From assembly GCA_029778615.1 (NCBI GenBank), contig JAKOPZ010000066.1, positions 1 through 39,201 of the forward strand: DNA of 39,201 nt, read 5' to 3'. The notes beneath the pieces are model-generated. The model searched no databases and was not told the origin of the DNA. It saw only the letters and a program-made list of their open reading frames with translations. The stretch comes from Chloroflexota bacterium. GTDB taxonomy: Bacteria; Chloroflexota; Anaerolineae; UBA4142; SHND01. Positions 11,754 through 39,201 of this stretch are shown piece by piece. The translations under genes and the position numbers were made by a program. How positions within the stretch are numbered: position 1 is the stretch's first letter; each line of letters opens with the position of its first letter.

Positions 11754-11825
11754 GGGTATCAGGTATCACGTATCAAGTATCGGGTATTCCATGCGACCCT
11801 ACTACTTGCTACCTGCTACATGCTC
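11754..11825. repeat. Heptad-periodic inverted repeat, copy 1
   Basis: Period-7 units of the type GTATCAG, GTATCAC, GTATCAA run toward the centre, and their degenerate complements (CTACTTG, CTACCTG, CTACATG) follow after a short loop. It fills the spacer between glnQ and livG and touches the start region of livG. Confidence 0.75.
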
Positions 11826-16400: not shown

Positions 16401-16710
16401 AATCCCAACCTTCCGCTTTGCCGTTATCGAGGCGGATATAGTTAAAGGGGATGTACGCGTTTTCGACCGCGACGGAAATCGTCTTACCGCCGAGGTCGGG
16501 CAGAGTGGCGGCAGGCGCAGTCGGCTGCGCCGCTGTTGGCTGCGCGGGCACCGCGGTGGGTTGTGCGGGAACGGCTGTGGGTTGTGGTGCCGTCGTCGGC
16601 GCGGGGGGGGGTGTTGCGGGCGTACCGCAGGCGCTGATGACGAGCATCAACGTCAAAAGCAGTGCGCCAAAAACAATGGTGCGTTTGGTTGAAACTGACG
16701 TACGTTTCAT
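13498..16710 (-). CDS. Chimeric triple-domain ABC substrate-binding lipoprotein (PAAT domain plus two LivJ/K domains)
   Basis: 1070 residues, far longer than a normal binding protein (250-420). Order: lipoprotein signal with ISAC (Cys28); PTAVPAQ-type linker (29-68); a family-3 (SBP_bac_3, GlnH-like) domain about 69-305, with [30 protein letters not shown] and a C-terminal ANKWF; linker; a LivJ/K-type (Peripla_BP_6) domain 322-691; a Ser6 linker; a second LivJ/K-type domain 700-1069. The two LivJ/K domains are tandem duplicates (offset 378 residues) sharing long identical runs, including [12 protein letters not shown] and [17 protein letters not shown], so each has a Cys pair. A strong GGAGGAG site precedes the ATG. 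Neighbours encode permeases and ATPases of both transporter families, suggesting one tethered receptor feeds both channels; this is inference. Confidence 0.93.
13504..15747 (-). repeat. Tandem 1.1-kb duplication inside the triple binding-protein gene
   Basis: Units 13504-14613 and 14638-15747 encode the two LivJ/K-type domains. The offset is 1134 bp, and nucleotide similarity is high throughout, including at third codon positions. This indicates a recent in-frame duplication or ongoing gene conversion. Confidence 0.85.
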
Positions 16711-25479: not shown

Positions 25480-27072
25480 ATGAAAAAATATATGACCCTT
25501 GCGATCATCGTTGCCGCTCTGGCACTGATCGTCGCCGGTTGTGGCGCACCGGCTGCACCCACCGCCGTACCCGCGCAACCAACCGCAGTACCGGCACAAC
25601 CGACCGCTGTCCCCGCGCAGCCCACCGCCGCGCCGGCAGCAACTCAGGCGCCCGCGCCCACTGAAGCCCCCAAGCCGACTGAGGCGCCACCACCAACCGA
25701 AGCGCCTACAGCTGCTTCGACCGAACCGACAGCGGTTCCAACCCCAACCATCCCGCCGCCGGTCCTCACGACGACGGAAGGTTGCGCACCGAATTCAACA
25801 CCCATCGTTTGGTTTATCGGCTTGGGTGCCGGTTCGCAGCCGAATGATGTTGTAAAAGAAAAAGCATGGGCGGACAAATACAACAAGTCCCAAACCGAAG
25901 CGTGTGTCATCTTGAATGTTGTCTATAACACCGGTAACAACTCGTACGATGCACTGCGCGCAATGATTGCCGGCGGCAATGCCCCCGACATTGTGGGTCC
26001 CGTTGGCAAAGCGGGTCGGGCTAGTTTTCAAGGTTCGTGGGCAGATATTGAACCGCTCGCCAAAGCCGCAGGTTTCGACCTGAGCAAGTACGACCCCAAA
26101 TTGCTCGACTTTACCAAAGATGAAGGCGTCCTCGTCGGTATCCCGTTCGCGTTGTTCCCGTCGTTCATCTATTACAACAAAGCATTGTTCGACGAAGCGA
26201 AATTGCCTTATCCGCCACACAAAGTTGGCGAGAAATATGACGGCAAAGATTGGAACATTGACACCTTTACCGAACTCGCGCAAAAGTTGACGGTGGACGG
26301 CAAAGGAAACGATGCCACGTCGCCCGATTTCGATCCCAAAGACATCAAGCAGTTTGGTTTCTATGAACAGTGGACCGACACACGCGGCATTGGCACATTC
26401 TTTGGCGGCGGCTTGCCGTACGACCCAAAGAATCCCAAGAACGCGGTGATTCCGGACAACTGGAAGGCAGCGTTCAAATGGTACTATGACGGTGTTTGGA
26501 ACAAACACTTTATGCCGAACTCGGATTACGCGAACAGTGACCAATTCGGCAAGGGCAACGTGTTCAGCAGCGGCAATCTTGCCATGTCGTGGGTTCACAC
26601 GTGGTACACCTGCTGTTTCGACCTGAGCAAGACGAGCTGGGACATTGCGGTCATGCCGACAGTAAACGGCGTCACCACTGCCAAACTGCACGGTGATACG
26701 TTCGCGATTTTGAAAGACAGCAAGCACAAAGATCTCGCGTTCAAGGTCTTGAGCGCAATGGTCGTGGACAAAGACCTGTATCAAATCTATGGCGGTATGC
26801 CTGCCCAAGTCGCCGACCGCCCCGCGTTCTGGGCAGCGTTAGACGAACGCGCCGCGCCGAACAAAGTGGACTGGACTGTCGCGGAAGAAATGCTCAAGTA
26901 TCCGGACCTCCCGAATCACGAAGCATGGATGCCCGATTATGCCAAGTCCAAAGACATCATGGACAAATGGCGCGTGTTCATTGACCAGACCCCCGGTCTT
27001 GACATGGACCAAGAAATCGCGAAACTGCAAGCAGAGCTCGATGCAGTCTTCAAGGCAGCACCGGAGCAATAA
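25480..27072 (+). CDS. Carbohydrate ABC transporter substrate-binding lipoprotein
   Basis: 530 residues. The signal ends in VAGC (Cys21). A long Pro/Thr/Ala linker (PTAVPAQ repeats then PTEAP repeats, about 22-98) keeps the binding domain away from the membrane. From about 105 the protein has the SBP_bac_1/8 (MalE/UgpB-like) fold, with VYNTGNNSYDALRAMIAGGNAPDIV near 145-170, then FPSFIYYNKALFDEAKLPYPP and a C-terminal TPGLDMDQEIAKLQAELDAVF. GGGAGGAG precedes the ATG. Two permeases follow. No ATPase gene is present, as is common for such sugar importers that share an MsmK-type ATPase. Confidence 0.94.
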   Translation: MKKYMTLAIIVAALALIVAGCGAPAAPTAVPAQPTAVPAQPTAVPAQPTAAPAATQAPAPTEAPKPTEAPPPTEAPTAASTEPTAVPTPTIPPPVLTTTEGCAPNSTPIVWFIGLGAGSQPNDVVKEKAWADKYNKSQTEACVILNVVYNTGNNSYDALRAMIAGGNAPDIVGPVGKAGRASFQGSWADIEPLAKAAGFDLSKYDPKLLDFTKDEGVLVGIPFALFPSFIYYNKALFDEAKLPYPPHKVGEKYDGKDWNIDTFTELAQKLTVDGKGNDATSPDFDPKDIKQFGFYEQWTDTRGIGTFFGGGLPYDPKNPKNAVIPDNWKAAFKWYYDGVWNKHFMPNSDYANSDQFGKGNVFSSGNLAMSWVHTWYTCCFDLSKTSWDIAVMPTVNGVTTAKLHGDTFAILKDSKHKDLAFKVLSAMVVDKDLYQIYGGMPAQVADRPAFWAALDERAAPNKVDWTVAEEMLKYPDLPNHEAWMPDYAKSKDIMDKWRVFIDQTPGLDMDQEIAKLQAELDAVFKAAPEQ

Positions 27073-27121
27073 GCAGAGTGCATCTCCGCTTGCTGTTCAA
27101 GCAAGTGTGTAAAGCATAAAA

Positions 27122-27157
27122 CCCTTGCGCCTTCTGAATCTCCAGAAGGCGCAAGGG
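27122..27157 (+). promoter_or_regulatory. Intercistronic hairpin after the sugar binding-protein gene
   Basis: A perfect 15-bp stem (CCCTTGCGCCTTCTG with CAGAAGGCGCAAGGG) and a 6-nt loop, 49 bp after the binding-protein stop and 21 bp before the permease start. There is no T run. Same position in the operon as the hairpins after the two amino acid binding-protein genes. Confidence 0.75.
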
Positions 27158-27178
27158 CAACACGCAAGGACTCGACCG

Positions 27179-28153
27179 ATGGCGACCACGAATCTTGCTC
27201 CTGTCCCGACCAGTTCCACATTCCCAGTCAAGCGAACCAAGTCCGCCTACTCGCGTCAGCGCACGCGATGGGGATGGCTCTTTTTGATGCCGTGGATTAT
27301 TGGCTTTTTTGCCTTTCAACTGCTACCGATTGCTTTTACTTTTTTTCTTTCGTTCACCGACTATAAAGCGACCACTGAATTCAAACCCGGTAATTTCAAT
27401 TTTGTTGGTCTGCAAAACTTTCAACGTTTGTTCTCCGACCCGCTCGCGCTGCCTTCGATGGGCGTCACGCTCAAGTTTGCCGCAATCGGTATTCCACTCG
27501 GGTTAATCATTCCCCTTGCGATTGCGGTGCTCGTCAATTCCAAACATTTGATTGCGCCCAGTATCTTTCGCACGCTCTTTTTCTTGCCAACGGTCATTCC
27601 CGTTGTTGCCGGTACCATCATTTTTAATGGTGTATTGAATTCGCAATCCGGCTGGATCAACTTGGGACTCAAAGCGTTGGGCATTGAGGACCCACCGCGT
27701 TGGTTTGGCGACCCCTTATGGGCGGGCTTTGCGTTGAACTTGCTCGCCATTTGGGCGGTCGGCAACGCAATGATTATTTTGCTCGCGGGCTTGCAAGGCG
27801 TTCCGACCGAGTTGTACGAAGCGGCGATTATGGATGGCGCGAATTATTGGCAGCGTTTCATCAGCATCACGGTCCCCATGATTTCACCGGTCATTTTTTA
27901 CAATGTCACGCTCGGCGTCATTTTTGCCTTTCAATATTTTGTGCCCGCGCTTTTGATTGGCGGACAAAACGGGAACCCGCAGGGGTCACTCTTGTTCTTT
28001 CCGCTGCACTTTTATCGGCAAGCATTTGTGTTTAGCGACATGGGCTACGCGGCAGTCCTCGCGCTCGTCATTTTTGTAGTGACGATGGTGGCGACAGGTC
28101 TCCTCTTTTTCTTTGGACAACGACTTGTCTATTACGCCGGTGGTGAATCGTAA
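27179..28153 (+). CDS. Carbohydrate ABC transporter permease (MalF/UgpA type)
   Basis: 324 residues from the ATG at 27179; earlier in-frame codons lie inside the hairpin and are rejected. AAGGA lies upstream. Six hydrophobic helices are visible, the first at WGWLFLMPWIIGFFAFQLLPI, and the EAA loop reads YEAAIMDGANYWQRFISITVPMI, as in MalF/UgpA/LacF. It forms a heterodimeric channel with the next gene's product. The N-terminus (about 1-30) is polar and variable. A 19-bp palindrome separates it from the next gene. Confidence 0.94.
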   Translation: MATTNLAPVPTSSTFPVKRTKSAYSRQRTRWGWLFLMPWIIGFFAFQLLPIAFTFFLSFTDYKATTEFKPGNFNFVGLQNFQRLFSDPLALPSMGVTLKFAAIGIPLGLIIPLAIAVLVNSKHLIAPSIFRTLFFLPTVIPVVAGTIIFNGVLNSQSGWINLGLKALGIEDPPRWFGDPLWAGFALNLLAIWAVGNAMIILLAGLQGVPTELYEAAIMDGANYWQRFISITVPMISPVIFYNVTLGVIFAFQYFVPALLIGGQNGNPQGSLLFFPLHFYRQAFVFSDMGYAAVLALVIFVVTMVATGLLFFFGQRLVYYAGGES

Positions 28154-28161
28154 GGACGTGT

Positions 28162-28180
28162 GACAAATTTTAAATTTGTC
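28162..28180. repeat. 19-bp palindrome GACAAATTT-T-AAATTTGTC
   Basis: A second copy of the palindrome at 21653-21671, differing only at the centre. It fills the spacer between the two sugar permease genes. Confidence 0.7.
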
Positions 28181-28206
28181 TTGCATCCAAGAGGAGAAAA
28201 ACAATC

Positions 28207-29292
28207 ATGTCAACTGCCGTTCAAGCGCAGACCGCCACCGCCGCCAAGACTCGCGTACTAGACAAACGCGCGCTGCGCAATCTTTCTTCGACCGTCATCC
28301 TCACCGGGATTGGCTTGCTCGTCTTGGTCATCTTTTTGCTGCCATTGGTTTATACGCTCGCCACGGCGTTCAAGCAGGACGCGCAGCTCACGGCGCAGAA
28401 CGCGCCGCTCTATCCCGCGCAGCCCTCGACCTTTAACTATGAAGGCAAAGATTATCCGCTCTATGAAGTTCCAATTGACGGAACCATCAAGCGCCTCGCA
28501 CTGATTAAACCATTCCGCGAAGACAGTGACATGCTCGACCCCGAGCATCCCGAAAATGGCGTGTTCAATGTCAAAGGACGCTGGCGTACGTGGACGCCCG
28601 TTTACACGTTTTCGCTTACGCTGGAAAATTTCACCACTGCGTGGGAACAAGTAAATTTTCCGCGCCTCTTTCGCAACAGCTTGCTGCTCGGCATCATTAG
28701 CACGGTTGGCACGCTCATCGCGTGTATTCTCGTCGCGTACGGCTTTGCGCGCTTTCCGATTCCCGGGAAAAATATCCTGTTCATCATTTTGATTTCGACC
28801 ATCGTGCTGCCGCCGCAAGCAACTATTATTCCGCTGTACATTTTGTTTTCGAAATTGGGTTGGACGGGAACGTGGCTGCCCTTGCTTGTCCCCGCGTTTT
28901 TCGCGAACGCGTATGATGTATTTTTGCTGCGGCAATATTTTATGAGCATCCCCAAAGAGCTGGACGAAGCGGCAATGCTCGATGGCGCGAGTCCGCTTCG
29001 CACGCTCATTTCGGTCATCATTCCCCAGTCCATTCCCGCGATTACGGCGGTAACGTTGTTCCACTTTTTCTTTGTGTGGAATGATTACTTCAGTCCGCTC
29101 GTGTATTTGCTCGGCAAAGAAGAACTGTATCCGATTTCGGTGGGCATCGGCGCGTTCGTCACAACCTTTACCAACTATCCGGGGCGCGCGGCAGCGACTG
29201 CGGCGCTCACCCTCTTGCTGCCCGCCGTTATTTTCTTTCTCGCGCAGCGCCAATTCATGCAGGGCGTCGTGGTTACAGGCGTCGAAAAATAA
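28207..29292 (+). CDS. Carbohydrate ABC transporter permease (MalG/UgpE type)
   Basis: 361 residues. The EAA loop reads LDEAAMLDGASPLRTLISVIIPQS, and the last segment LPAVIFFLAQRQFMQGVVVTGVEK is the MalG-type C-terminus. It partners with the MalF-type permease upstream. Between helix 1 (about 27-53) and helix 2 there is an unusually long soluble outside loop of about 85 residues (YPAQPSTFNYEGKDYPL... to ...TTAWEQVNFPRLFRNS), where MalG usually has a much shorter one. GAGGAG precedes the ATG at 28207. It is followed closely by the glycosidase gene. Confidence 0.94.
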   Translation: MSTAVQAQTATAAKTRVLDKRALRNLSSTVILTGIGLLVLVIFLLPLVYTLATAFKQDAQLTAQNAPLYPAQPSTFNYEGKDYPLYEVPIDGTIKRLALIKPFREDSDMLDPEHPENGVFNVKGRWRTWTPVYTFSLTLENFTTAWEQVNFPRLFRNSLLLGIISTVGTLIACILVAYGFARFPIPGKNILFIILISTIVLPPQATIIPLYILFSKLGWTGTWLPLLVPAFFANAYDVFLLRQYFMSIPKELDEAAMLDGASPLRTLISVIIPQSIPAITAVTLFHFFFVWNDYFSPLVYLLGKEELYPISVGIGAFVTTFTNYPGRAAATAALTLLLPAVIFFLAQRQFMQGVVVTGVEK

Positions 29293-29298
29293 AATGCG

Positions 29299-30672
29299 AT
29301 GCGTCGTTTTCTATTCGTCGTTTGTCTATTCTTGATGGGCTGCGCGGGGCAAAGTGTCCCAACGCCGACGGCGACAGTGCCGCCGCCAATCCGGCTGCTT
29401 GCAACCAGTACACCGCTGGCAACGACTACGCCAACGCCGTTGCCGAGCGGTGTCTTTATAGACACAAACCAAGCACTCGGCGCGGTCAGCCCGCTCTCAT
29501 TCGGCACCAATCACGGACCTTGGGCATTTTTGACGGTCGAGTTGTGGGAACACTTTAAAAAATCGGGCATCACTTTTATTCGTTTTCCCGGCGGCAATTG
29601 GGGCGATGAAAATGATTTGACCGCGCAGCAGGTTGACGACTATATCAAGTTGGTGCGGATGGTCAATGCGGAACCGCAAATCTCGGTGCGCTTGCGCGAC
29701 GGCACGCCCGAATACGCTGTCGCGCTGCTCAAGTACACGCAAGAGAAAAATTACAACGTCACGTACTGGAGCATCGGTAACGAGCCGAGTCTGTACGGCG
29801 TGCGCTTTCCCGAATGGACAACGGAAAAATACAATATCGAGTGGCGCAAATTCGCGCAAGCACTGAAAGCGCAAGACCCGACGATAAAGTTGATTGGTCC
29901 GGACATTCATCAATTCACCGGCACGCCGGATGTGGACCCGAAAGATAGTTTGGGGCGCGACTGGCTCGACGAATTCTTGAAAGCGAACGGCGATTTGGTG
30001 GACGTTGTGTCAATCCATCGCTATCCGTTTCCAAAACAACGCGGTGATGCGCCGCCTTCCGCAGAGAATTTGTTTGCCAGCGCGCGCGAATGGGATAAAA
30101 CAATTCCAAATTTACGCGCGCGCATTCGCGCGGCGACCGGACGCGATTTGCCGATTGCAGTGACGGAATTCAATTCCGATTGGGCGGGCAAACTTCAAGG
30201 CAAGACCACTGCCGATTCCGTGAACGGCGCGTTGTATATTGCTGATTCGTTGGGGCGCATGATTCGTCAGCGCGTGGACATCATCGCGCAATTTACCTTG
30301 CAGATGAGCGCCGGAGTCGGCGCGCTGGGTATATTCGAGCATTATGACCCGCGACCCGTCTATTACGTGTACTTGCTCTACAAACAATTTGGCAATGAAT
30401 TGGTTTTTGCGTCGTCGGATGATGAACAAGTTTCCGCGTACGCGGCAAAACGCGCGGATGGTACTCTCACGCTCGTACTTTTGAATTTGAGCGAACAAGC
30501 ACAGACCAAGCCCATTCATTTCGCGGGCGATAAAAAATTTGACGACGCGCAAGTTTTTCTCTTTGACGCAACACACAAAGCAGAACAAGTTGGCACATTG
30601 AAAATAACGAACGGCATGTCGGTCACGCTGCCGCCGAGCTCGATGAGTTTGTATGTAATTTCGCCACAATGA
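29299..30672 (+). CDS. Secreted glycoside hydrolase lipoprotein, GH51/clan GH-A-like
   Basis: 457 residues with a lipoprotein signal (LMGC, Cys15) and a Pro/Thr linker. From about 50 it has a TIM-barrel glycosidase of clan GH-A: FIRFPGGNWGDENDL, then YWSIGNEPSLYG with the acid/base E162, and IAVTEFNSDW with the nucleophile E290. A C-terminal beta domain (about 385-457) follows. The FPGGN, GNEP and TEFN patterns resemble alpha-L-arabinofuranosidases (GH51/COG3534), but GH39- or GH79-like enzymes cannot be excluded. As an anchored outside enzyme it would trim an oligosaccharide before uptake by the transporter encoded upstream. The next gene overlaps its stop (ATGA). Confidence 0.85.
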   Translation: MRRFLFVVCLFLMGCAGQSVPTPTATVPPPIRLLATSTPLATTTPTPLPSGVFIDTNQALGAVSPLSFGTNHGPWAFLTVELWEHFKKSGITFIRFPGGNWGDENDLTAQQVDDYIKLVRMVNAEPQISVRLRDGTPEYAVALLKYTQEKNYNVTYWSIGNEPSLYGVRFPEWTTEKYNIEWRKFAQALKAQDPTIKLIGPDIHQFTGTPDVDPKDSLGRDWLDEFLKANGDLVDVVSIHRYPFPKQRGDAPPSAENLFASAREWDKTIPNLRARIRAATGRDLPIAVTEFNSDWAGKLQGKTTADSVNGALYIADSLGRMIRQRVDIIAQFTLQMSAGVGALGIFEHYDPRPVYYVYLLYKQFGNELVFASSDDEQVSAYAAKRADGTLTLVLLNLSEQAQTKPIHFAGDKKFDDAQVFLFDATHKAEQVGTLKITNGMSVTLPPSSMSLYVISPQ

Positions 30673-31514
30673 ATTTTGAAAACATTTTGAAAAATCACGT
30701 CGCGCTCGTGACGGGCGCCAGTCGCGGCGTGGGCAAAGGTATCGCACTCGGTTTGGGCGAAGCGGGCGCGACCGTCTATGTCACGGGGCGCACGGCAACA
30801 GGCACGGACCCCGATGGTTTGCCCGGCACAATTTTTGAAACGGCGCAAGAGGTTACGCGCGCAGGCGGGCAGGGCATCGCCATTGTGTGCGACCACAGCG
30901 ACGATGCGCAAGTTGCGCGTGTGTTTGAACAAATCGCAGCGGAACAAACGCGGCTTGATATTCTGGTAAACAATGTATGGGCGGGCTATCAACGCATGGA
31001 ACATGATGGCACGTTCACATGGCTCAACAAATTCTGGGAACAACCGTTTTGGCGTTGGGACGCGATGTTTGCTTCGGGCGTGCGCGCACACTTTACCGCA
31101 TCCGCCTTTGCCGCGCGGAGGATGGTGCAGCAACAACGCGGCTTGATAGTCAACATTTCGTTTTGGGCGGCGCTCAAGTACATGAACAATGTTTTGTACG
31201 GCGTTGCCAAAGCGGCGGACGATACGCTCGTGCGCGATATGGCGCATGAATTGCGCGAACACCATGTCGCGGCCGTCACACTCTATCCGGGTTTGGTACG
31301 CACCGAAGGAGTGATGAAGAACGAACAGTATTTTGACCTGCGCAATTCGGAATCGCCGCAATTCATCGGACGCGCGGTCGCGGCGTTGGCACATGACCCG
31401 AACGTAATGGAAAAATCGGGCAAGGTTCTGGTCGCTGCGGCGCTCGCATTGGAATATGGCTTTACGGATATGGATGGCAAACAGCCGCGTCCATTAACCT
31501 TGCAACAAGCATGA
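30669..31514 (+). CDS. Short-chain dehydrogenase/reductase
   Basis: 281 residues, cytoplasmic, classic SDR fold. The cofactor motif is TGASRGVG (15-22) and the active site is N in VNNVWAG, Ser in NISFWAA, and Tyr-x-x-x-Lys in LYGVAKAADD. The long LYGVAKAADDTLVRDMAHEL helix and the insertion of WLNKFWEQPFWRWDAMF before it resemble the DHRS1-like group of SDRs. Its substrate is unknown. It is coupled by ATGA overlaps to the glycosidases on both sides, so it probably oxidises or reduces a released sugar or aglycone, but that is inference from position. Confidence 0.9.
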   Translation: MNFENILKNHVALVTGASRGVGKGIALGLGEAGATVYVTGRTATGTDPDGLPGTIFETAQEVTRAGGQGIAIVCDHSDDAQVARVFEQIAAEQTRLDILVNNVWAGYQRMEHDGTFTWLNKFWEQPFWRWDAMFASGVRAHFTASAFAARRMVQQQRGLIVNISFWAALKYMNNVLYGVAKAADDTLVRDMAHELREHHVAAVTLYPGLVRTEGVMKNEQYFDLRNSESPQFIGRAVAALAHDPNVMEKSGKVLVAAALALEYGFTDMDGKQPRPLTLQQA

Positions 31515-33526
31515 CCCGATTTGCTCTGCTTTTTATTTGTTGTGCGATGGCAATTGTGTCTTGTTCGGGCGCGCCGAGCGCACCCCCCCCCACGACCGCT
31601 GCGCCGACGCAACCCGCGACCCTTGCGACCGCTGCGCGTACTACCGTTGCCGCTACCGCAACAATGCCAACGGCTGAAACAAGACCGCTTTATCAGGACG
31701 CGTCGCAGCCGATTGAGAAACGCGTGGACGATTTGCTTGCGCGCATGACGCTCGCGGAAAAACTTGGGCAGATGACGCAGGTGGAAAAGAACAGCATCTC
31801 GCCCGCGCAAGTGACGCAGTTCGCGATTGGTTCTGTGTTGAGTGGCGGCGATGGTTTCCAAGACAATTCGCCGCAAGCGTGGCGCGGCATGGTGGAAAGT
31901 TACGAACAAGCCGCGCTGGAAACGCGACTCGGCATTCCATTGTTGTTTGGCGTAGATGCGGTGCATGGTCACGGACATATTGCCGACGCGACGTATTTTC
32001 CACAAAACATTGGACTTGGCGCGACGCGTGACGCCGCGCTCGTTGAAAAAATTGGACGCGCGACGGCGGAACAAGTTTCTGCCACCGCGATGCAATGGAA
32101 TTTTGCGCCGGTGCTCGCGGTGCCGCAAGACATTCGTTGGGGACGCACGTACGAAACTTACGGCGAAAACACGGAACTCGTCACCGAATTGGGCGCGGCG
32201 TATGTCAAAGGTTTGCAAAACATTGACGGCAAACTCGCGTTGGAGAATCCGCAAACCGTTTTGGCGACGCCGAAACATTTTATCGGCGATGGCGGCACAA
32301 AATTTGGCACGTCCAATCAATTTATCCAACAACCATACTTGCTCGACCAGGGCGATATGCAAATGGATGAAGCGAGCGTGCGCGAATTATTTTTGCCGCC
32401 GTACAAGGCAGCCGTCGAAGCGGGTGCGGAAACGGTGATGGTATCGTTCAGCAGTTGGAACGGCGTGAAAATGCACGCGCAGAAAAAATGGCTGACCGAT
32501 GTGCTAAAAGGCGAACTCGGTTTCAACGGATTTGTTGTTTCGGACTGGCAAGCGATTGACCAAATTTCACCCGACTATTATCAGGCAGTTGTGACGGCAA
32601 TCAACGCGGGGATTGATATGAGCATGGTGCCGTACGATTATCGAAAATTTATCACCACACTCGGACAAGCGGTTGAAAAGGGCGATGTGCCATCCGCGCG
32701 TATTGACGATGCCGTGCGGCGGATTCTCACGGTGAAATTTAAAAAAGGATTGTTCGAACAGCCGATTCCGCAGACCGACGTCAACAGCGTCGTGAATAAC
32801 GCCGCACACCAAGCGCTCGCGCGTGAGGCGGTGCAAAAATCGCTTGTCCTCCTCAAGAATGAAAATCAAACTCTGCCTCTCAAGAAAAATGCGGCGGTCA
32901 TTTTTGTAGCGGGCGAAGGCGCAAAAAATACCGGTTATCAAAACGGCGGCTGGACGCTCGACTGGCAAGGCGTCACAGGCAACGCGGGCGGCACCTCTAT
33001 TTTGCAAGCGATTCAAAATGCGGTTGGCGCGAACACGCGCGTCGAATTCAATACGTTTGGCAATTTCACCAACATCAAGGACGCGCAAGGCAACGCGGTC
33101 AAAGCAGACATAGGCATTGCCGTGATTGCGGAAAAACCCTACGCGGAAGGCGTGGGCGACCGAGCGAAATTGGATTTGGACGCGTCGGAAATTTTGCGCC
33201 TTGCGCGCGTTCGCGAGGCAAGCCAACGCGTGGTCGTGATTTTGCTTTCGGGACGTCCGCTGGTGATTACTCGAGCGCTCCCGTATGCGGATGCGTTCGT
33301 TGCGGCGTGGCTGCCCGGCAGTGAAGGGGAAGGCATCACCGATGTTTTGTTCGGGGACGTACAATTTTCCGGCAAAACGCCCTTTACGTGGCTCCGCGCG
33401 AGTTCGCAACTGCCATTCGATTTCAAAAATCCCAAGACCGAAGGTTGCGACGCGCCATTGTTTCCGTACGGCTTTGGCTTGACGACAAAAGACGCGTCAC
33501 CAAAAATTTTAGAATGTCCGGCGTAA
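31511..33526 (+). CDS. Secreted glycoside hydrolase family 3 beta-glucosidase lipoprotein
   Basis: 671 residues, with a lipoprotein signal (IVSC, Cys18) and a PTAPT-rich linker (to about 58). The GH3 N-terminal barrel follows, with LGQMTQ, GVDAVHGHGH, ATPKHFIGDG, and the nucleophile D345 in GFVVSDWQAI. The C-terminal alpha/beta sandwich starts near 430 (SLVLLKNENQTLPLKK) and contains VVILLSGRPLVI and the last-strand PFTWLRAS. There is no fibronectin-III domain. Members of this length hydrolyse beta-glucosides or beta-glucan oligosaccharides. It is coupled by ATGA to the SDR gene. It acts outside, whereas the next gene, a GH1, has no signal and acts inside. Confidence 0.94.
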   Translation: MTRFALLFICCAMAIVSCSGAPSAPPPTTAAPTQPATLATAARTTVAATATMPTAETRPLYQDASQPIEKRVDDLLARMTLAEKLGQMTQVEKNSISPAQVTQFAIGSVLSGGDGFQDNSPQAWRGMVESYEQAALETRLGIPLLFGVDAVHGHGHIADATYFPQNIGLGATRDAALVEKIGRATAEQVSATAMQWNFAPVLAVPQDIRWGRTYETYGENTELVTELGAAYVKGLQNIDGKLALENPQTVLATPKHFIGDGGTKFGTSNQFIQQPYLLDQGDMQMDEASVRELFLPPYKAAVEAGAETVMVSFSSWNGVKMHAQKKWLTDVLKGELGFNGFVVSDWQAIDQISPDYYQAVVTAINAGIDMSMVPYDYRKFITTLGQAVEKGDVPSARIDDAVRRILTVKFKKGLFEQPIPQTDVNSVVNNAAHQALAREAVQKSLVLLKNENQTLPLKKNAAVIFVAGEGAKNTGYQNGGWTLDWQGVTGNAGGTSILQAIQNAVGANTRVEFNTFGNFTNIKDAQGNAVKADIGIAVIAEKPYAEGVGDRAKLDLDASEILRLARVREASQRVVVILLSGRPLVITRALPYADAFVAAWLPGSEGEGITDVLFGDVQFSGKTPFTWLRASSQLPFDFKNPKTEGCDAPLFPYGFGLTTKDASPKILECPA

Positions 33527-33589
33527 TAGATTCGCGTTTCTCGCAATTCGTTTTTTGCATTTCATTCGATTCACTCTGGAGACAACACC

Positions 33590-34897
33590 ATGAATACATT
33601 TCCATCTGATTTTGTGTGGGGCGCGGCAACGGCGTCGTATCAAATTGAAGGCGCGTGGAACGCGGACGGCAAAGGCGAATCCATTTGGGACCGCTTTAGC
33701 CATACGCCCGGCAAAATTATCAACAATGACAATGGCGATGTCGCGTGCGACCATTATCATCGCTATCGCGACGATGTGCGCCTGATGCGGCAAATTGGTT
33801 TACGCGCGTATCGCTTTTCCATTTCGTGGTCCCGCGTGATTCCCAATGGTGTGGGCGCGGTGAATGAAAAGGGCATTGACTTTTATGACCGCCTCGTGGA
33901 CGCGCTCTTGGAAGAAAATATCGAACCGTACGCGACGCTCTATCATTGGGACTTGCCGCAGGCGCTCCAAGACAAAGGCGGCTGGGGCAATCGCGACATC
34001 ATCGGACAATTTGCCGATTACACTGCGTTGATGAGCAAACGACTCGGCGACCGCATCAAGTATTGGGCAACCCTGAACGAGCCGTGGGTGATTGCATTCA
34101 TGGGACATCGCAGCGGTGAACACGCGCCAGGTTTGAAAGATGAAGCGTTGTCGCTCCAAGTTTCGCATCATTTGCTCGTCGCGCATGGCGCAGCCATTGA
34201 TGTACTGCGCGCGACCGTGCGCGATGTGAAAGCGGGCATCGTCATCAATTTATGGCCCTCGGAGACAATGCACAACACCGAACAAGAATTGCAAATCGCG
34301 CATGACATGTGGCAACGCGACAATGCGTGGTTCCTCGACCCGATTTTTCGCGGCAGCTATCCCGCCGATGTGTTAGAGTTCTATGGCGCGCGGGCGCCAA
34401 AAATTTTGCCGGGTGACATGGCACAAATTTCGCGCGACCTCGACTGGTGGGGCGTTAACTATTACGCGCGCCACATGATTGGCGCAGACGGACCCGTACC
34501 CGGTTCTGAATATACCGAAATGGGCTGGGAAGTTTACGCTCCGGCATTCGAACGAATGCTTGTGCGTCTGCATAACGAATATCGTCTGCCTCCGATGTAT
34601 ATCACCGAAAACGGCGCGGCGTTCGCCGATGTGGTGGAGGACGATTACGTCTATGACCCGCGCCGCGTGAATTATCTCGAAACGCACCTCGACGCGATGG
34701 CGAATGCTATCGCGCGGGGCGTTGACTTGCGCGGCTATTTTGTTTGGTCCCTGTTAGACAATTTTGAATGGGCGTTTGGATACGGCAAACGGTTCGGCAT
34801 CATTTACATTGATTTTGAAACCCAACAGCGCATTTGGAAAGAAAGCGCCAAGTGGTACGCCAATTTCATTCGCGCGCATCAAATGCAGCCCGCGTAA
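33590..34897 (+). CDS. Glycoside hydrolase family 1 beta-glucosidase (cytoplasmic)
   Basis: 435 residues, full-length GH1 TIM barrel. The N-terminal signature FPSDFVWGAATASYQIEGAW is present, the acid/base is E164 in TLNEPWV, and the nucleophile is E340 in YITENGAAF. No signal peptide is seen, so it cleaves beta-glucosides after uptake. The TTCTGGAGAC leader places a ribosome-binding site 8 nt before the ATG. It follows the GH3 gene after a 63-bp gap and is the last gene of the sugar region. The only terminators found downstream are the ones near 35039-35214. Confidence 0.96.
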   Translation: MNTFPSDFVWGAATASYQIEGAWNADGKGESIWDRFSHTPGKIINNDNGDVACDHYHRYRDDVRLMRQIGLRAYRFSISWSRVIPNGVGAVNEKGIDFYDRLVDALLEENIEPYATLYHWDLPQALQDKGGWGNRDIIGQFADYTALMSKRLGDRIKYWATLNEPWVIAFMGHRSGEHAPGLKDEALSLQVSHHLLVAHGAAIDVLRATVRDVKAGIVINLWPSETMHNTEQELQIAHDMWQRDNAWFLDPIFRGSYPADVLEFYGARAPKILPGDMAQISRDLDWWGVNYYARHMIGADGPVPGSEYTEMGWEVYAPAFERMLVRLHNEYRLPPMYITENGAAFADVVEDDYVYDPRRVNYLETHLDAMANAIARGVDLRGYFVWSLLDNFEWAFGYGKRFGIIYIDFETQQRIWKESAKWYANFIRAHQMQPA

Positions 34898-34941: not shown

Positions 34942-34970
34942 TTGACATCTCATTCATTCCATGATATAAA
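34942..34970 (+). promoter_or_regulatory. Promoter in the spacer before the acetyltransferase array
   Basis: -35 TTGACA (34942-34947), a 17-bp spacer and -10 TATAAA (34965-34970), placed 45 bp after the GH1 stop and 285 bp before the first acetyltransferase. It would start a long leader. Confidence 0.75.
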
Positions 34971-35014
34971 CTCACTCGGTCTTGCGACGAATAACATCGC
35001 AGGAGGCGCATTCA

Positions 35015-35116
35015 ATGGTAATGAACACACTCACCTTCAACAGCATCAACACCCGCCGCGTAATGGGCGGTGATGCTGTTTTTCCTTGTACGAGTGCGCC
35101 TGTTGACCGTCGCTGA
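35015..35116 (+). CDS. Leader ORF of 33 codons
   Basis: It starts MVMNTLTFNSINTRRV and ends in APVDRR, then TGA. GCAGGAGGCG lies just upstream, and a near-consensus promoter stands 45 bp before it. The reading frame runs through the hairpin at 35039-35083, so ribosome position could decide whether that hairpin forms. I do not recognise the peptide, and a chance frame cannot be excluded. Confidence 0.45.
   Translation: MVMNTLTFNSINTRRVMGGDAVFPCTSAPVDRR
35039..35083 (+). terminator. Terminator-like hairpin inside the leader ORF (possible attenuator)
   Basis: AACAGCATC (35039-35047) pairs with GATGCTGTT (35072-35080), with further pairing of ACC..GCC to GG(C)GGT inside, followed by TTTTT. It is embedded in the 33-codon ORF, the layout of a translational attenuator. 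Confidence 0.6.
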
Positions 35117-35138
35117 AAGAACACGCGATTGCATTTTG

Positions 35139-35175
35139 AACCACGGGCGGCACTAGACGCTCGTGGTTTTTTTTT
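35139..35175 (+). terminator. Rho-independent terminator
   Basis: AACCACGGGCG (35139-35149) pairs with CGCTCGTGGTT (35158-35168), with one G-U and an 8-nt loop, followed by a run of nine T. Confidence 0.85.
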
Positions 35176-35184
35176 CTCTATGCC

Positions 35185-35214
35185 ACCACGAGCGCGGACG
35201 TTCGTGGTTTTTTT
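35185..35214 (+). terminator. Second tandem terminator
   Basis: ACCACGAGCG (35185-35194) pairs with CGTTCGTGGT (35199-35208), with a 4-nt loop, followed by a run of T. Its arms are nearly the same as those of the terminator just before it, so they are duplicates. Confidence 0.8.
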
Positions 35215-35254: not shown

Positions 35255-35827
35255 ATGGTTCTGCAACTTTTCGAGGGCGAAAAAATTCGCTTTGCCGCGT
35301 TCGACGCGGACAAAGATGCCGAAGTTTTTTCCAAATGGACGCACGACCCCGAATATCTGCGTCTGACTGAATACGAAGCCGCGCGTCCGCTGGCGCCGTT
35401 TCACATCAAAAAGAAATTTGAAGAGATGGAAAAAGAAGCGGGGCGCGATTTCTATTTCTTTGTAATTCGCACGCAAGAGGATGACCGCGCCATCGGTTTC
35501 GTCCACCTGCGTTGGATTGAATGGAATCACGGCAACGCGCACTTTAACATGGGCATCGGTTCGCCCGATGACCGCCGCAAAGGTTTGGGCAGTCAAGCGC
35601 TGCAAATGTTTCTGCGCTACGCATTCGAAGAATTGAATCTGTATCGCCTGACAGGACATACCTTTGAATACAACGACGGCGCGCAAAAATTTCTAGAGAA
35701 ACACGGCTTTCAACTCGAAGTGCGCCGCCGCGAAGCGGTCTATCGGGATGGACGTTATTGGGACGCGCTGTCGTATGGAATTTTGGCGGAGGAGTGGGAG
35801 GCGAAACAGGTATCAGGTAGCAAGTAG
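35255..35827 (+). CDS. GNAT-family acetyltransferase (RimJ/RimL type), array member 1
   Basis: 190 residues. The acetyl-CoA motif is GIGSPDDRRKGLGSQALQMFL, followed by YAFEELNLYRLTGHTFEYNDGAQKFLEKHGF, which fits the RimJ/RimL branch (Acetyltransf_3/4). The acceptor substrate is unknown. AAAGGAG lies 5 nt before the ATG. Its last codons (KQVSGSK) come from a heptad repeat, so the C-terminus may have been reshaped by the repeat. It heads the array of paralogues, and it is the most diverged member of the first four. Confidence 0.9.
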   Translation: MVLQLFEGEKIRFAAFDADKDAEVFSKWTHDPEYLRLTEYEAARPLAPFHIKKKFEEMEKEAGRDFYFFVIRTQEDDRAIGFVHLRWIEWNHGNAHFNMGIGSPDDRRKGLGSQALQMFLRYAFEELNLYRLTGHTFEYNDGAQKFLEKHGFQLEVRRREAVYRDGRYWDALSYGILAEEWEAKQVSGSK

Positions 35828-35873
35828 CAGGTTATTGCCAACCTTACTACGTGCTACCTGATACATGCTATTA
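35807..35873. repeat. Heptad-periodic inverted repeat, copy 2
   Basis: The left arm (GTATCAGGTAGCAAGTAGCA type, period 7) pairs over about 24 bp with the right arm starting AACCTTACTACG. It gives the last codons and the TAG stop of the gene at 35255 and fills the spacer. Confidence 0.8.
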
Positions 35874-35878
35874 GCAAG

Positions 35879-36439
35879 ATGAACAATCTTTTCACAGGCA
35901 AACTTACGCGGCTCGTCGCGGCGGACCCTGAAAAATTGGGCGAACTCGTCGCCAAGTGGTCACGTGATTCCGAATTTTATCAACTGTTCGACAGTGACCC
36001 CACGCTGCCACGCAATGCAAAACGCGCGCAAGAACATTTTCGGGAACGCGCAGAAAAAGACCGCGGGGGCAATTTTCACTTTCTCGTTCAGTCGCTCCAA
36101 GACGAACGCATCATCGGCGAAGGCGGCTTGTTCGACGCGTTTTCACCACATCACAACGCGTGGCTCGCGATTGGAATTGGCGAACGCGAATTGTGGGGCA
36201 AGGGATATGGGACCGACGCGGTGAACATTCTTTTGCGGTTTGCATTTCAAGAATTGAATTTGCATCGCGTGAATCTTGGCACATTTGAATACAACGCCCG
36301 CGCGATTCGCGCGTACGAAAAAATTGGTTTCGTGCATGAAGGCAAATGGCGTCAATCCATGCGACGCGACGGCAAACGCTGGGACAATTATTTTATGGCA
36401 ATTTTGCGCCGCGATTGGGAAGCGAAACAAAATGGATAA
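35879..36439 (+). CDS. GNAT-family acetyltransferase (RimJ/RimL type), array member 2
   Basis: 186 residues starting MNNLFTGKLTRLVAADPEKL. The acetyl-CoA motif is GIGERELWGKGYGTDAVNILL, then FAFQELNLHRVNLGTFEYNARAIRAYEKIGFVHEG. Very close in layout to array members 3 and 4. Substrates could be ribosomal-protein N-termini, an antibiotic or a small amine; the sequence does not tell. No clear ribosome-binding site precedes the ATG at 35879. The next gene overlaps by 8 bp (ATGGATAA). Confidence 0.92.
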   Translation: MNNLFTGKLTRLVAADPEKLGELVAKWSRDSEFYQLFDSDPTLPRNAKRAQEHFRERAEKDRGGNFHFLVQSLQDERIIGEGGLFDAFSPHHNAWLAIGIGERELWGKGYGTDAVNILLRFAFQELNLHRVNLGTFEYNARAIRAYEKIGFVHEGKWRQSMRRDGKRWDNYFMAILRRDWEAKQNG

Positions 36440-36977
36440 TTCATTATTTACCGGCAGACTCGTTCGGCTTGCCGCGCGCGAACCTGAAAACGATGCGGCG
36501 ACCATCGCGGCATGGGACAGGGATACAGAATACAACCGCCTTTTGTCCGTCGAACCCGTGCTGCCGCCGCGTCTAAAAGATGCGCGCGAAATGCTGGAGC
36601 GTCCCATCAAAGACCGCTTTTTTCCTTTTGGCATTCGCACGCTCGCCGATGACAAATTGATTGGCTTTGTAATTTTAATGAATGTGAATCATGTTTACGG
36701 CGACGCGTTTGTGGGAATCGGAATGGGCGACCCCGCGTATCGCGGCAAAGGATACGGCACCGACGCGATGAATCTCGTATTGCGATTCGCGTTTCAAGAA
36801 TTGAATCTGCATCGCGTTTCGCTCGATGCTGTCGCAACGAATACGCGTGCAGTCCGTTCGTATGAAAAATGCGGGTTCGTCCACGAAGGGCAAACGCGCG
36901 GCACCGAATTTCGCAACGGCGTTCGCGACAATTTGGTGTGTATGGGAATTTTGCGGACGGAATGGAAGGACAGGTAG
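36432..36977 (+). CDS. GNAT-family acetyltransferase (RimJ/RimL type), array member 3
   Basis: 181 residues starting MDNSLFTGRLVRLAAREPEN. The longer frame from 36276 overlaps member 2 and is rejected. The motif is GMGDPAYRGKGYGTDAMNLVL followed by FAFQELNLHRVSLDAVATNTRAVRSYEKCGFVHEG. Overlaps member 2 by 8 bp, so the two are probably translated together. The stop TAG lies in a heptad repeat. Confidence 0.92.
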   Translation: MDNSLFTGRLVRLAAREPENDAATIAAWDRDTEYNRLLSVEPVLPPRLKDAREMLERPIKDRFFPFGIRTLADDKLIGFVILMNVNHVYGDAFVGIGMGDPAYRGKGYGTDAMNLVLRFAFQELNLHRVSLDAVATNTRAVRSYEKCGFVHEGQTRGTEFRNGVRDNLVCMGILRTEWKDR

Positions 36978-37058
36978 TAGGTAGCATGTAGCAAGGCAGG
37001 TCCTTTCCTTGCAACCTGCTACCTGATACCTGCTACTTGATACCTACCACTTGCTACC
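36971..37058. repeat. Heptad-periodic inverted repeat, copy 3
   Basis: GGTAGTAGGTAGCATGTAGC is the left arm; the right arm runs from CCTTGCAACCTGC through further CTACTTG-type heptads to 37058. The arms pair over about 24 bp around a short loop, with five mismatches. It fills the spacer between members 3 and 4. Confidence 0.8.
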
Positions 37059-37061
37059 AAC

Positions 37062-37622
37062 ATGAACAACCTTTTCACCGGTCAACTCGTCAAACTCACT
37101 GCCAGCAATCCTGAAACAGACCCGAAAATCATGGCAGAATGGCATCGCGATACGGAATTTTTTCGCCTCGCGTACGGACGCATCGCGCAGCCGTGGAACG
37201 CGAAAACAATTCAGGAGCGCATCGAAAAATACGGTGGCGAACTGAACGAACCGATTTTTGCGATTCGCACGCTCGCGGACGACAAGCTGATTGGACAAAT
37301 GGGGATGTGGATTGACCAACCACACGGCGACGCGTTCACATGGATTCTCATCGGTGAACGCGACTATTGGGGCAAAGGATACGGCACGGACGCGATGCGC
37401 GTGTTCATGCGTTACGCGTTTCAAGAATGGAATCTGCATCGTCTCTCGCTCCGCGTCTTTGGATTCAACAAACGCGCGATTCGTTCGTACGAAAAATGCG
37501 GTTTCCTTCACGAAGGCGTCAATCGGAACGCGTTACAGAAAATGGGACAGCGTTGGGAAGAAGTATGGATGGGGATTACGCGCGGGGATTGGGAAAGACA
37601 GCAGATGGCAGACAGCAGATAG
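37062..37622 (+). CDS. GNAT-family acetyltransferase (RimJ/RimL type), array member 4
   Basis: 186 residues starting MNNLFTGQLVKLTASNPETD, a close paralogue of members 2 and 3. The acetyl-CoA motif is IGERDYWGKGYGTDAMRVF, then YAFQEWNLHRLSLRVFGFNKRAIRSYEKCGFLHEG. Its final residues (RQQMADSR) are coded by a heptad repeat that carries on past the stop. No clear ribosome-binding site; the ATG follows the previous repeat directly. Confidence 0.92.
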   Translation: MNNLFTGQLVKLTASNPETDPKIMAEWHRDTEFFRLAYGRIAQPWNAKTIQERIEKYGGELNEPIFAIRTLADDKLIGQMGMWIDQPHGDAFTWILIGERDYWGKGYGTDAMRVFMRYAFQEWNLHRLSLRVFGFNKRAIRSYEKCGFLHEGVNRNALQKMGQRWEEVWMGITRGDWERQQMADSR

Positions 37623-37710
37623 CAGAAGGTGAAACGTCAAACGTCAAACGTCAAATCGCCAATCTCTAATCTCCAGGCTCCAGTCTCTAATCTCTAGTCT
37701 CCAGTCTCCA
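37596..37710. repeat. Heptad-periodic direct repeat array, copy 4
   Basis: Seventeen or so units in strict 7-bp phase. They drift from AGACAGC/AGATGGC through CAAACGT (three times) to CTAATCT, CCAGTCT, CTAGTCT. Unlike the other copies it is direct only, with no central loop. It starts inside the coding sequence of array member 4 and ends 16 bp before the next ATG. Confidence 0.85.
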
Positions 37711-37726
37711 CTAAAGAGGAACACAA

Positions 37727-38746
37727 ATGCTTGCCACTCTCGAGCAAAAAACATTCGCGCCCGAACTGGGCATCGAAGGGTTAACCTTAAGAAATTGGCG
37801 CGACGATTCGGATTACGCCAAGATGCTGCCCATCTTGTACGCAGACCGGCTGTCGCAAGGTTTGGAAGAAAGCATCACATTGCCGGATTACAAAACGTCG
37901 TTCGAAACCATGCCGGGCATGAACGTTCGCACAGGCATTTTTTTGCTGGAACGATATGGCGAACCGATTGCTTACAAAACAATCCGCGCAGTGCCCGAAG
38001 CTGATGGTTCATATCGTTACGCCCATTATGGTTGCGTGCTGCCCGCATGGAAAGGGCGCGGCATCGGGCGCGCAATGATTCGTCACAGCGAAGCGATGCT
38101 GCGCGAATTGGCGGAAACGCATCCTGCCGACGCGCCAAAATTTTTCCAGACGTTTTTGCAAACCACGCAAACCGCGCTCATCCAATTGCTCGAGCAAGAA
38201 GGATACGCGCCGGTGCGCTATTTTTTTGAAATGCTGCGCGAAACGTTGGACGATATTCCCGAGAATGACCTGCCGTCGGGCATCAAGGCGCGACCCGTTG
38301 ACCCGCAACACTATCGAAAAATTTGGGATGCGATGCTGGAAGCGTTCAAAGAACATTGGGGCGAAGAGGAGCACACCGACGCGGATTTTGAAAATTGGCT
38401 CAAGCGTCCGCACTTTGACCCGACCTTGTGGCATATCGCGTGGGATGGGGACCGCGTTGTTGCCGTCGTCATCAATCAAATTAATGAGACCGACAACGCG
38501 CACTACAATCGCCAACGCGGTTTCACCGAAGACATTGCAACCTTAAAGGAATATCGCGGACGCGGCATCGCGCAAGCATTGATTGTGCGCGGCTTGCGAC
38601 AATTCCGTGAACGCGGCATGAACGCGGCGGGGCTTGATGTGGACGGTGAAAACGCGACGGGCGCGCTGCGCTTGTACGAAAAACTCGGCTATCGCCCGAT
38701 TCGCACTGTGATGGCGTATCGCAAAGGATTCGAGATTAGAGACTAG
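37727..38746 (+). CDS. Double-domain GNAT acetyltransferase
   Basis: 339 residues made of two GNAT domains, about 17-170 and 185-339. The first has the acetyl-CoA motif YGCVLPAWKGRGIGRAMIRH; the second has TLKEYRGRGIAQALIVRGL and then ENATGALRLYEKLGYRPI. This is the two-domain layout of mycothiol-synthase-like and related GNATs; the acceptor is unknown. AGAGGA lies 7 nt before the ATG. The last codons and the TAG stop lie in another heptad repeat. Confidence 0.92.
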   Translation: MLATLEQKTFAPELGIEGLTLRNWRDDSDYAKMLPILYADRLSQGLEESITLPDYKTSFETMPGMNVRTGIFLLERYGEPIAYKTIRAVPEADGSYRYAHYGCVLPAWKGRGIGRAMIRHSEAMLRELAETHPADAPKFFQTFLQTTQTALIQLLEQEGYAPVRYFFEMLRETLDDIPENDLPSGIKARPVDPQHYRKIWDAMLEAFKEHWGEEEHTDADFENWLKRPHFDPTLWHIAWDGDRVVAVVINQINETDNAHYNRQRGFTEDIATLKEYRGRGIAQALIVRGLRQFRERGMNAAGLDVDGENATGALRLYEKLGYRPIRTVMAYRKGFEIRD

Positions 38747-38805
38747 AGACTGGAGACTGTTCCGAATAAAAGTAAGAATCTCCAACCTCTAATCTCAAGT
38801 CTCCA
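38732..38805. repeat. Heptad-periodic inverted repeat, copy 5
   Basis: The left arm GATTAGAGACTAGAGACTGG (period 7) is followed by a short loop and a degenerate complementary right arm ending AATCTCAAGTCTCCA. It includes the stop of the double-domain GNAT gene. Confidence 0.8.
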
Positions 38806-38815
38806 CATATTCATC

Positions 38816-39201
38816 ATGCCTTTTTCAATTGCTTCACCAACACTTGAAGAGAAACAAGAATTCACCACGCGGCGTTTGACGCGCGGCGACCTGCCGGAAA
38901 TGTGGGAATTGCTCCAAGTCATTAATCGCGTGGACGATAACGATTACTATGAAGCGCTTGAGGATTTGGAACGCCAGTATGAGGACCCGCGCAGTAATCC
39001 GAAAACGGACGCGCGCATTCTCCGAAACGCGTTGGGCAAGCTCGTGGCGTTTGCGCGCATCTTTGCTTTGCCCAAACCCACGAACGAAAACATCGCGTTC
39101 CTTTCCTGCGAGGTTGCGCCTGAAGCGCGCGCGCAAGGGCTAGAACAAGAGTGCATTGATTGGATGGAAACGCGCGCGACAGAACGTCTCGCCGAAATCG
39201 C
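38816..39201 (+). CDS. GNAT-like protein, C-terminus beyond the right edge
   Basis: The frame is open from the ATG at 38816 to the end (128 codons). The first residues (TTRRLTRGDLPEMWELLQVINRVDD) look like the start of a GNAT domain, but the acetyl-CoA motif lies at or beyond the edge, so the assignment rests on the N-terminal pattern and the neighbours. No ribosome-binding site is seen; the ATG follows a heptad repeat by 10 bp. Confidence 0.6.
   Translation, partial: MPFSIASPTLEEKQEFTTRRLTRGDLPEMWELLQVINRVDDNDYYEALEDLERQYEDPRSNPKTDARILRNALGKLVAFARIFALPKPTNENIAFLSCEVAPEARAQGLEQECIDWMETRATERLAEI

Follow-up and report, generated by a model that had tools for sequence, protein, structure and literature searches.

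The 39,201-nucleotide (nt) contig JAKOPZ010000066.1 of the Chloroflexota bacterium assembly GCA_029778615.1 (class Anaerolineae), analyzed here in full and called the window, ends in six consecutive open reading frames (ORFs) for GNAT acetyltransferases, g1 to g6 (35255-39201, all on the + strand). Directly upstream of these genes lies a leader (34942-35208) that most likely works as a ribosome-sensing "domino" attenuator. We consider it likely, from sequence and predicted folds, that the array opens a resistance-type operon directed against translation inhibitors and that this operon is under the control, in cis, of a transcription attenuator that senses the ribosome. As a kind of gene array, the six GNATs are well conserved but ordinary; what stands out is the leader, which is widespread in the class. 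The initial annotation, confined to 35255-39201, had excluded the leader and omitted the longer operon.

The leader fills the space before g1 with a promoter, a Shine-Dalgarno (SD) block, a 33-codon upstream ORF (uORF), an anti-SD block named B, and two tandem terminators. The uORF with its SD block thus stands between the promoter and the first gene, and a predicted intrinsic terminator stands between the uORF and that gene. For comparison, we used five congeners (genomes G001-G005), in all of which (5/5) the same arrangement precedes g1. The features in the window are as follows.

34942-34970, + strand: sigma-70-type promoter, TTGACA-17 nt-TATAAA, read in the sequence.
35000-35012, + strand: segment A, the SD block CAGGAGGCGCATT of the uORF, paired with B in the minimum-energy fold.
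35015-35116, + strand: uORF of 33 codons, MVMNTLTFNSINTRRVMGGDAVFPCTSAPVDRR, found at the same place and with a similar C-terminus in 5/5 congeners.
35093-35100, + strand: segment B, AGTGCGCC, a conserved block in which the uORF ends; it is an anti-SD and, by prediction, the antiterminator strand, pairing with A or C.
35138-35169, + strand: terminator T1 (terminator scan), made of segment C (35138-35149), a loop, and segment D (35158-35169).
35185-35208, + strand: terminator T2 (terminator scan), made of segments E (35185-35194) and F (35199-35208).

The promoter was omitted by a consensus scanner, as this scanner requires a T at position 6 of the -10 box. A TTGACA-type -35 box and a TATA-type -10 box also precede the leader in the five congeners and, by eye, most other leaders. 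The window leader folds with a z-score of -5.7, and none of 200 shuffles was as low. The terminator scan alone proves little, because it found 12 sites in the region when 8.5 (standard deviation, sd, 3.1) are expected by chance.

The complementary segments suggest how the leader may work. With no ribosome, A would pair with B, T1 would fold, and transcription would stop. With unhindered translation, the ribosome would reach the stop codon and cover B; T1 would again fold and transcription would stop. With an inhibitor holding the ribosome at the start or in the early part of the uORF, A would be covered and B would be free to pair with the 5' arm of T1 before its 3' arm is made. The freed 3' arm of T1 would then pair with the 5' arm of T2, so that T2 would fail as well and the polymerase would read into the operon. 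From this, we infer that antibiotics would induce the operon. Constrained folds of the window leader are consistent with the first steps: in the unmasked RNA (no ribosome), B pairs with A; in the RNA up to 35160 with the start region masked, B shifts from A (35005-35012) to C (35146-35154); and masking of the stop region makes B unavailable. Together with the pairing statistics given next, these folds point to an antiterminator and an anti-antiterminator that exclude each other.

Six segments are complementary in a chain, A:B, B:C, C:D, D:E, and E:F (in order, the SD block, B, the T1 5' arm, the T1 3' arm, the T2 5' arm, and the T2 3' arm). We analyzed their pairing in 75 leaders, of which 17 made up the seed and 58 came from a genome search. 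The A and B blocks vary between families yet stay complementary, with A:B duplexes of -17.7 kcal/mol for a leader's own partners vs -14.3 kcal/mol across families. When seven family representatives were reordered, only 3 of 5040 arrangements (among them the true one) were as good; for twelve representatives, none of 20000 was. Across the 75 leaders, the own A:B value was -14.7 vs -12.5 when permuted (0/5000). The pairing of B with the 5' arm and loop of T1 (B:C, 74 leaders) reached -10.5 kcal/mol, vs -6.7 (sd 0.23) with shuffled arms, -7.5 with the reversed block, and -10.2 with the arms of other leaders (2/5000). For D:E, the values in the 66 leaders with a T2 were -17.1 kcal/mol for the own T1 3' arm and T2 5' arm vs -12.6 for permuted ones (0/5000). 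T1 and T2 were predicted as hairpins with T-runs in 75/75 and 66/75 leaders, respectively. In the 17 seed leaders, 97.3% of the cells of the T1 stem are paired, with double changes at 5/9 pairs and a covariation of 0.464 vs 0.297 in shuffled alignments (0/500); the number of pair types in these 17 leaders was not above that of the shuffles. A single covariance model of the whole leader was dropped, as the register of A:B shifts from family to family and the length of the uORF is not constant.

The presence of a uORF says little by itself, because one of at least 14 codons is found in 69% of shuffled upstream regions (and in 75/75 leaders). A uORF of at least 14 codons combined with an SD energy of -8 or lower was present in 51/75 leaders vs 5.1% of 1500 shuffled upstream regions. 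B is read in frame in 61/75 leaders, as exactly Ser-Ala-Pro in 41 of these, with AGT and GCG as its codons in 48/61 and 56/61, respectively. Family f2 includes ten leaders in which the stop codon TAG overlaps B, the frame differs, and the peptide ends in LP, LS, or LV; in these, it is the base sequence rather than the peptide that is conserved. Three f2 leaders (L190, L194, and L221) are in frame, and four leaders outside f2 are out of frame for other reasons.

Beyond the congeners, the leader was found at 11 of 13 further array loci (L048, L051, L053, L055, L057, and L067 were left out of this survey). It stands directly before g1 at L129 (G012), L133 (G046), and L135 (G079), and before an ABC ATPase gene that precedes g1 at L127 (G008), L128 (G010), L130 (G014), L131 (G019), L132 (G040), L134 (G049), L050, and L052. 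At L047, only the 3' end of the leader, with the terminators, lies within the contig.

The contig of the window stops in g6. In 4/5 congeners (G001, G003, G004, and G005), the array is followed by an ABC-F-cluster protein, which is spread over several ORFs in G003, and by an acetyltransferase of Eis type; the contig of G002 ends within g6. Behind g6 of G001, the only genome scanned in this way, the ABC-F protein scores 424.2 bits against NF000355 (ribosomal protection proteins of the ARE ABC-F type; cut-off 380) and stays below the cut-offs of the named antibiotic resistance (ARE) subfamilies, and the Eis-like protein matches PF13527. Next in G004 are the gene for RsgA and a TetA(P)-like gene of the major facilitator superfamily (MFS), the latter scoring 319 of the 750 bits set for TetA(P). 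In several other families, a pair of g1/g2 type follows a DrrA-type ATPase, with a DrrB-type permease nearby, as in DrrAB-type exporter operons; other partners are a TetA(P)-like MFS gene, a RIO kinase, more GNATs, an Eis-like gene, or a gene of the ABC-F cluster. The genes associated with the array belong to kinds that have links to the export and modification of drugs and to the protection of ribosomes. The six GNATs are most likely the 5' part of a conserved resistance-type operon against translation inhibitors in Chloroflexota, as judged from this gene content. Among its products, g1-g6 and the Eis-like enzyme would probably acetylate amine-bearing antibiotics or polyamines, the exporters (DrrAB-type, TetA(P)-like, and ABC) would remove drugs from the cell, and ABC-F, RsgA, and RIO kinase would protect ribosomes or repair them.

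We searched genomes with a model named R1, which contains B and T1 (the 3' module, 80 positions, short calibration); search filters were stricter in two large R1 searches. Of the 298 genomes of the class, 125 have a match at E<=0.01 and, counted from the listed best values, 115 have one at E<=0.001, at least 14 of these being seed genomes. In a draw of 400 genomes from the phylum, 34 have a match at E<=0.001, 30 within the class and 4 outside it. By BLAST, the genes behind these four code for RsgA (the second ORF listed there), a DrrA-like protein accompanied by permeases, an ABC exporter, and an ABC-F-like protein. Outside the phylum, none of 28 genomes reached through GNAT loci matched at E<=0.001, and 3/28 did at E<=0.01; neither a B block nor a uORF was seen in the stretch inspected around these three matches. 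The looser threshold was dropped as the main one because of these three genomes.

The kinds of genes behind the leaders provide an independent check of the leader, because R1 excludes the downstream genes. We took 60 match regions, mostly better-scoring matches and second copies rather than a random sample, and used 58 of them, as L186 and L188 end too soon; many of these leaders have relatives within the set and among the seeds. First genes were classified with BLAST, Pfam, and manual sorting, and at L203 and L211 the second ORF was counted in place of ORFs of 89 and 86 amino acids (aa), the latter also RIO-like. The 58 first genes comprise 31 ABC_tran proteins, 2 ABC-2 permeases, 12 GNATs, 3 MFS proteins, 4 RIO kinases, 2 RsgA, and 4 others, so that 54/58 are parts of ABC transporters, ABC-F proteins, GNATs, MFS proteins, RIO kinases, or RsgA. 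Among the 31 ABC_tran genes, 16 are of DrrA type, 14 carry an ABC_membrane domain, and 1 is ABC-F-like. For three of the four others, GNATs are encoded within the two genes that follow, and one such operon includes RtcB. The window's own genome has 97 ABC_tran matches (94 over the cut-off) in 6.0 Mb. An NCBIfam tally of the 58 first genes was not used, as generic ABC models dominate it.

Some individual loci found in this search can be listed. The own genome's second copy of the leader, L213 (G000:C223:21321-21416), lies directly before its sole strong RIO1 match (124.8 bits); the only other RIO1 match in this genome is weak (28.6 bits). At L176 (G075:C86), the leader is followed by an operon with a 154-aa protein without a Pfam family, the RNA ligase RtcB, and two-domain GNATs. 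Proteins without a Pfam family are also encoded by the second gene behind L173 (765 aa) and the first genes behind L177 (200 aa) and L181 (301 aa); these three are candidate resistance or rescue factors. The second leaders of G001, G002, and G004 (L214, L215, and L216) precede pairs of ABC proteins of ~600 aa and show weak D:E pairing (-7.8 to -9.6 kcal/mol).

Several observations weigh against the attenuator reading, which is drawn from sequences and computed folds. In full-length RNA, both T1 and T2 form whichever region is masked, which means that antitermination has to be kinetic, as is assumed for known attenuators. When the stop region is masked, C finds other partners upstream instead of staying free. 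In the window, C:D (-19.2 kcal/mol; longer, with G-U pairs) is more stable than D:E (-18.0; ten perfect pairs), and C:F can pair as well (-15.8). The likeness of T1 and T2 could also follow, perhaps in part, from duplication of a terminator. The partner-specific excess of B:C is small because this pairing is largely common to all leaders, A:B is weak in L050 (-5.6), and the permutations of pairing partners ignore relatedness. No T2 was obtained in 9/75 leaders (for G046, the stretch ended too early), and several of the uORFs picked by our routine look too short. As for distribution, 183 of the 298 genomes of the class have no R1 match at E<=0.001 under the strict filters, and L049 has no visible leader in the 420 bases before g1, where the gene before g1 was not followed up. 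Finally, g1-g6 all stay below the NCBIfam equivalog cut-offs for SpeG, PseH, AAC(6'), RimI/J/L, and MshD.

The leader could instead be a general attenuator for translation stress (or for an amino acid or tRNA) that controls a ribosome-maintenance regulon, in which ribosomal proteins or polyamines would be the targets of the GNATs, and stalled ribosomes would be mended by RsgA, RIO kinase, RtcB, and ABC-F. RsgA, RIO, and RtcB suit such a role no less than one in drug resistance; the RIO (4) and RsgA (2) genes among the 58 first genes, the RtcB operon, and the resemblance of g1-g4 to RimJ/RimL/SpeG all speak for it. Most of the 58 first genes, however, are ABC transporter parts or GNATs, and we regard this explanation as unlikely. 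Its tRNA-sensing version is disfavored since the uORFs, inspected by eye, have no run of codons for one amino acid.

It is very improbable that two ordinary terminators merely insulate the array from the upstream gene and that the uORF is an unrelated small gene. Terminator-like sites are common, and a GH1 gene (33590-34897, + strand) does end just upstream of the window leader on the same strand; a GH1-type gene lies upstream in G001 and G002 as well. The upstream neighbor is other DNA in G003-G005, yet promoter, uORF, and terminators are kept with the operon there and in other families; moreover, the pairing between segments is partner-specific, and further genes of resistance type are preceded by this leader, too. 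A riboswitch that binds a metabolite and has an ORF embedded in it, which a structured and conserved 5' region before transport and modification genes might suggest, is just as improbable, given that the region from A to B varies in sequence and length (uORFs of 8-49 codons as picked) with no conserved aptamer core seen and that no Rfam family matched at the gathering level.

This last result comes from a search of Rfam 15 with the window and 18 leader loci; the best sub-threshold matches in the window leader had E-values of 0.28-0.47. Weinberg 2010 lists the Chloroflexi-1 and pan motifs for the phylum. Both stayed below threshold in the window. A literature search with few subscription papers within reach returned no such leader in Chloroflexota or Anaerolineae among the matches listed, which leaves its absence from the literature unproven.

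Among named relatives, metagenome-assembled genomes (Anaerolineae/Chloroflexota) are nearest. The genes of the array are the following.

35255-35827, + strand: g1, RimJ/RimL/SpeG-like GNAT acetyltransferase, 190 aa, first behind the leader; PF13302, 72.3 bits.
35879-36439, + strand: g2, GNAT acetyltransferase, 186 aa; PF13302, 72.4 bits.
36432-36977, + strand: g3, GNAT acetyltransferase, 181 aa, overlapping g2 by 8 nt; PF13302, 75.6 bits.
37062-37622, + strand: g4, GNAT acetyltransferase, 186 aa; PF13302, 64.2 bits.
37727-38746, + strand: g5, two-domain GNAT (MshD-like architecture), 339 aa; two PF00583 stretches, 78 bits.
38816-39201, + strand: g6, another two-domain GNAT, of which the contig holds just the beginning; PF00583, 20.3 bits.

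The initial annotation had described six acetyltransferases, or genes resembling them, in a row, and Pfam agrees: PF13302 (Acetyltransf_3, cut-off 25.4 bits) is found in g1-g4 at 64-76 bits, PF00583 (cut-off 20.7 bits) in g5, and the truncated g6 is borderline, just below the cut-off that g1-g5 pass (20.3 vs 20.7). Orthologs of g6 in G001, G004, and G005 have 337-362 aa, are 59-71% identical to the fragment, and are also related to g5. There are thus two types, the single-domain, RimJ/RimL/SpeG-like g1-g4 and the two-domain g5 and g6. The motifs FTG.L..L, GKGYGTDA, and YEK.GF.HEG noted earlier as common to g2, g3, and g4 are all present. The best matches of g3 in its own genome are g4 (50%), g2 (47%), and g1 (38%), the next best reaching 83 bits; g1-g4 are a tandem family and not a chance arrangement.

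The tandem family is, however, not a recent expansion of recent paralogs, as had been proposed. The identity among g2-g4 is 46-49%, vs 58-87% between these genes and their congener orthologs (g2 70-82%, with 58-63% for a variant g2' that the tree tells from g2; g3 58-77%; g4 73-87%; the value for g1 is 79-93%). In a tree of 105 rows, for which the bootstrap had not fully settled, g1-g4 each form their own genus clade, with support of 100/100 for g1, 100/100 for g2 (7 rows), 100/99 for g3, and 100/99 for g4 (4 rows). As to whether members group with distant genes rather than with each other, g1 does. Position-1 array genes from other families of the class join g1 (22-row clade, 100/94), and g4 clusters with genes of other families (96/85, 99/74) before joining g2 or g3. 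The approximately unbiased (AU) test on a 58-row subset rejected a single clade of g1-g4 (p-AU 2e-5), and a clade of g2+g3+g4 was neither recovered nor rejected (p-AU 0.18). On the basis of this orthology and tree, we reject a recent lineage-specific expansion of GNATs.

Gene order is kept in the five congeners. The array reads g1-g2-g3-g4-g5-g6 in G001 and G002 (where the contig end cuts g6), g1-g2'-g2-g3-g4-g5 in G003, g1-g2-g3-g5-g6 in G004, and g1-g2'-g3-g5, a second g5-like gene, and g6 in G005. No g6 was found within the 10 kb contig of G003, and no g4 in the arrays of G004 and G005. As read from these sequences, the array consists of old, kept duplicates with gain and loss inside the genus, without a recent burst. 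Arrays of 7-nt repeats lie between genes of the window (11755-11828, 35807-35867, 36985-37058, 37596-37710, and 38732-38805), with units such as GGTATCA, TAGCAGG-like, AGACAGC, AAACGTC, and AATCTCC, several as inverted pairs. The 7-mers in the array-gene spacers of G001, G002, and G004 are mostly unlike those of the window, and such repeats were set aside as a cause of the duplications because the congener spacers hold other 7-mers.

Old, stably kept duplicates fit several distinct substrates, and substrate diversification of the array, as suggested initially, is plausible. Enzyme names from NCBIfam were dropped, as every score was below its cut-off (PseH, 49.0 of 93.1 for g2; SpeG, 52.5 of 218 for g3; the mycothiol synthase MshD, TIGR03448, 53.7 of 163.1 bits for g5). 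The nearest PDB sequences to g5 are 7q3a and 3tt2. For g3, the AlphaFold model has a pLDDT of 90.6, and the nearest solved folds among the 50 matches listed are the putative acetyltransferase 6erd and the spermidine acetyltransferase SpeG (TM score 0.74-0.83, by query length). The folds are similar, but identity is 22-29%; because of this and of the SpeG equivalog score, the substrate cannot be transferred to g3. Fold and context suggest that the enzymes may act on amines such as polyamines and amine-bearing antibiotics.

Elsewhere in the window, 25480-34897 (+ strand) holds a cluster of sugar-use type (ABC permeases, GH39-like, SDR, GH3, and GH1), part of which also precedes the leader in G001. 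A 1070-aa protein with one SBP_bac_3 and two Peripla_BP_6 stretches (13498-16710, - strand) adjoins two permeases of branched-chain type.

If the attenuator reading is true, a leader family that spans the class in a mostly uncultured phylum would be another way to build a resistome against translation inhibitors, with many operons, one repeated cis RNA, and no master regulator. R1 could then serve as a search model that flags unassigned genes as likely resistance or ribosome-rescue genes, and the six-GNAT family would become a functional prediction, namely of enzymes maintained to deal with different translation-blocking amines.

The best-studied drug-sensing leaders are those of a few Gram-positive model organisms. 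In Bacillus subtilis, lincomycin leads to read-through of the bmrB leader of bmrCD, where the terminator lies inside the ORF and one gene pair is controlled (PMC4191407). The Chloroflexota leader differs in having two tandem terminators after the ORF, a B block that doubles as anti-SD, and a T1 3' arm that can trap T2, and it recurs before many operons of a class. The vmlR leader of B. subtilis is similar in having a uORF in the anti-antiterminator stem, an antiterminator, an intrinsic terminator, and an ABC-F gene under control; it has a three-residue uORF, one attenuator terminator, and an element, SL-4, that partly hides the vmlR SD (PMC9226507). In the Chloroflexota leader, in contrast, the uORF is longer, a second terminator is mostly present, and the genes that follow are of several kinds.

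In Actinobacteria, the WhiB7/WblC regulon holds eis, efflux, and ribosome-protection genes. Similar kinds of genes stand behind the Chloroflexota leaders. The uORF upstream of whiB7 senses several classes of antibiotics (PMC12121999). On balance, we lean towards the view that Chloroflexota, above all Anaerolineae, may have a phylum-specific counterpart of this regulon that needs no regulator protein. A copy of the RNA element would be present at every operon for resistance or ribosome rescue, and in this element one eight-base block would act as anti-SD and then as antiterminator, and two terminators with matching stems would fail one after the other when a drug halts the ribosome on the uORF. 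The difference from WhiB7 would be that each operon has its own leader and needs no transcription factor.

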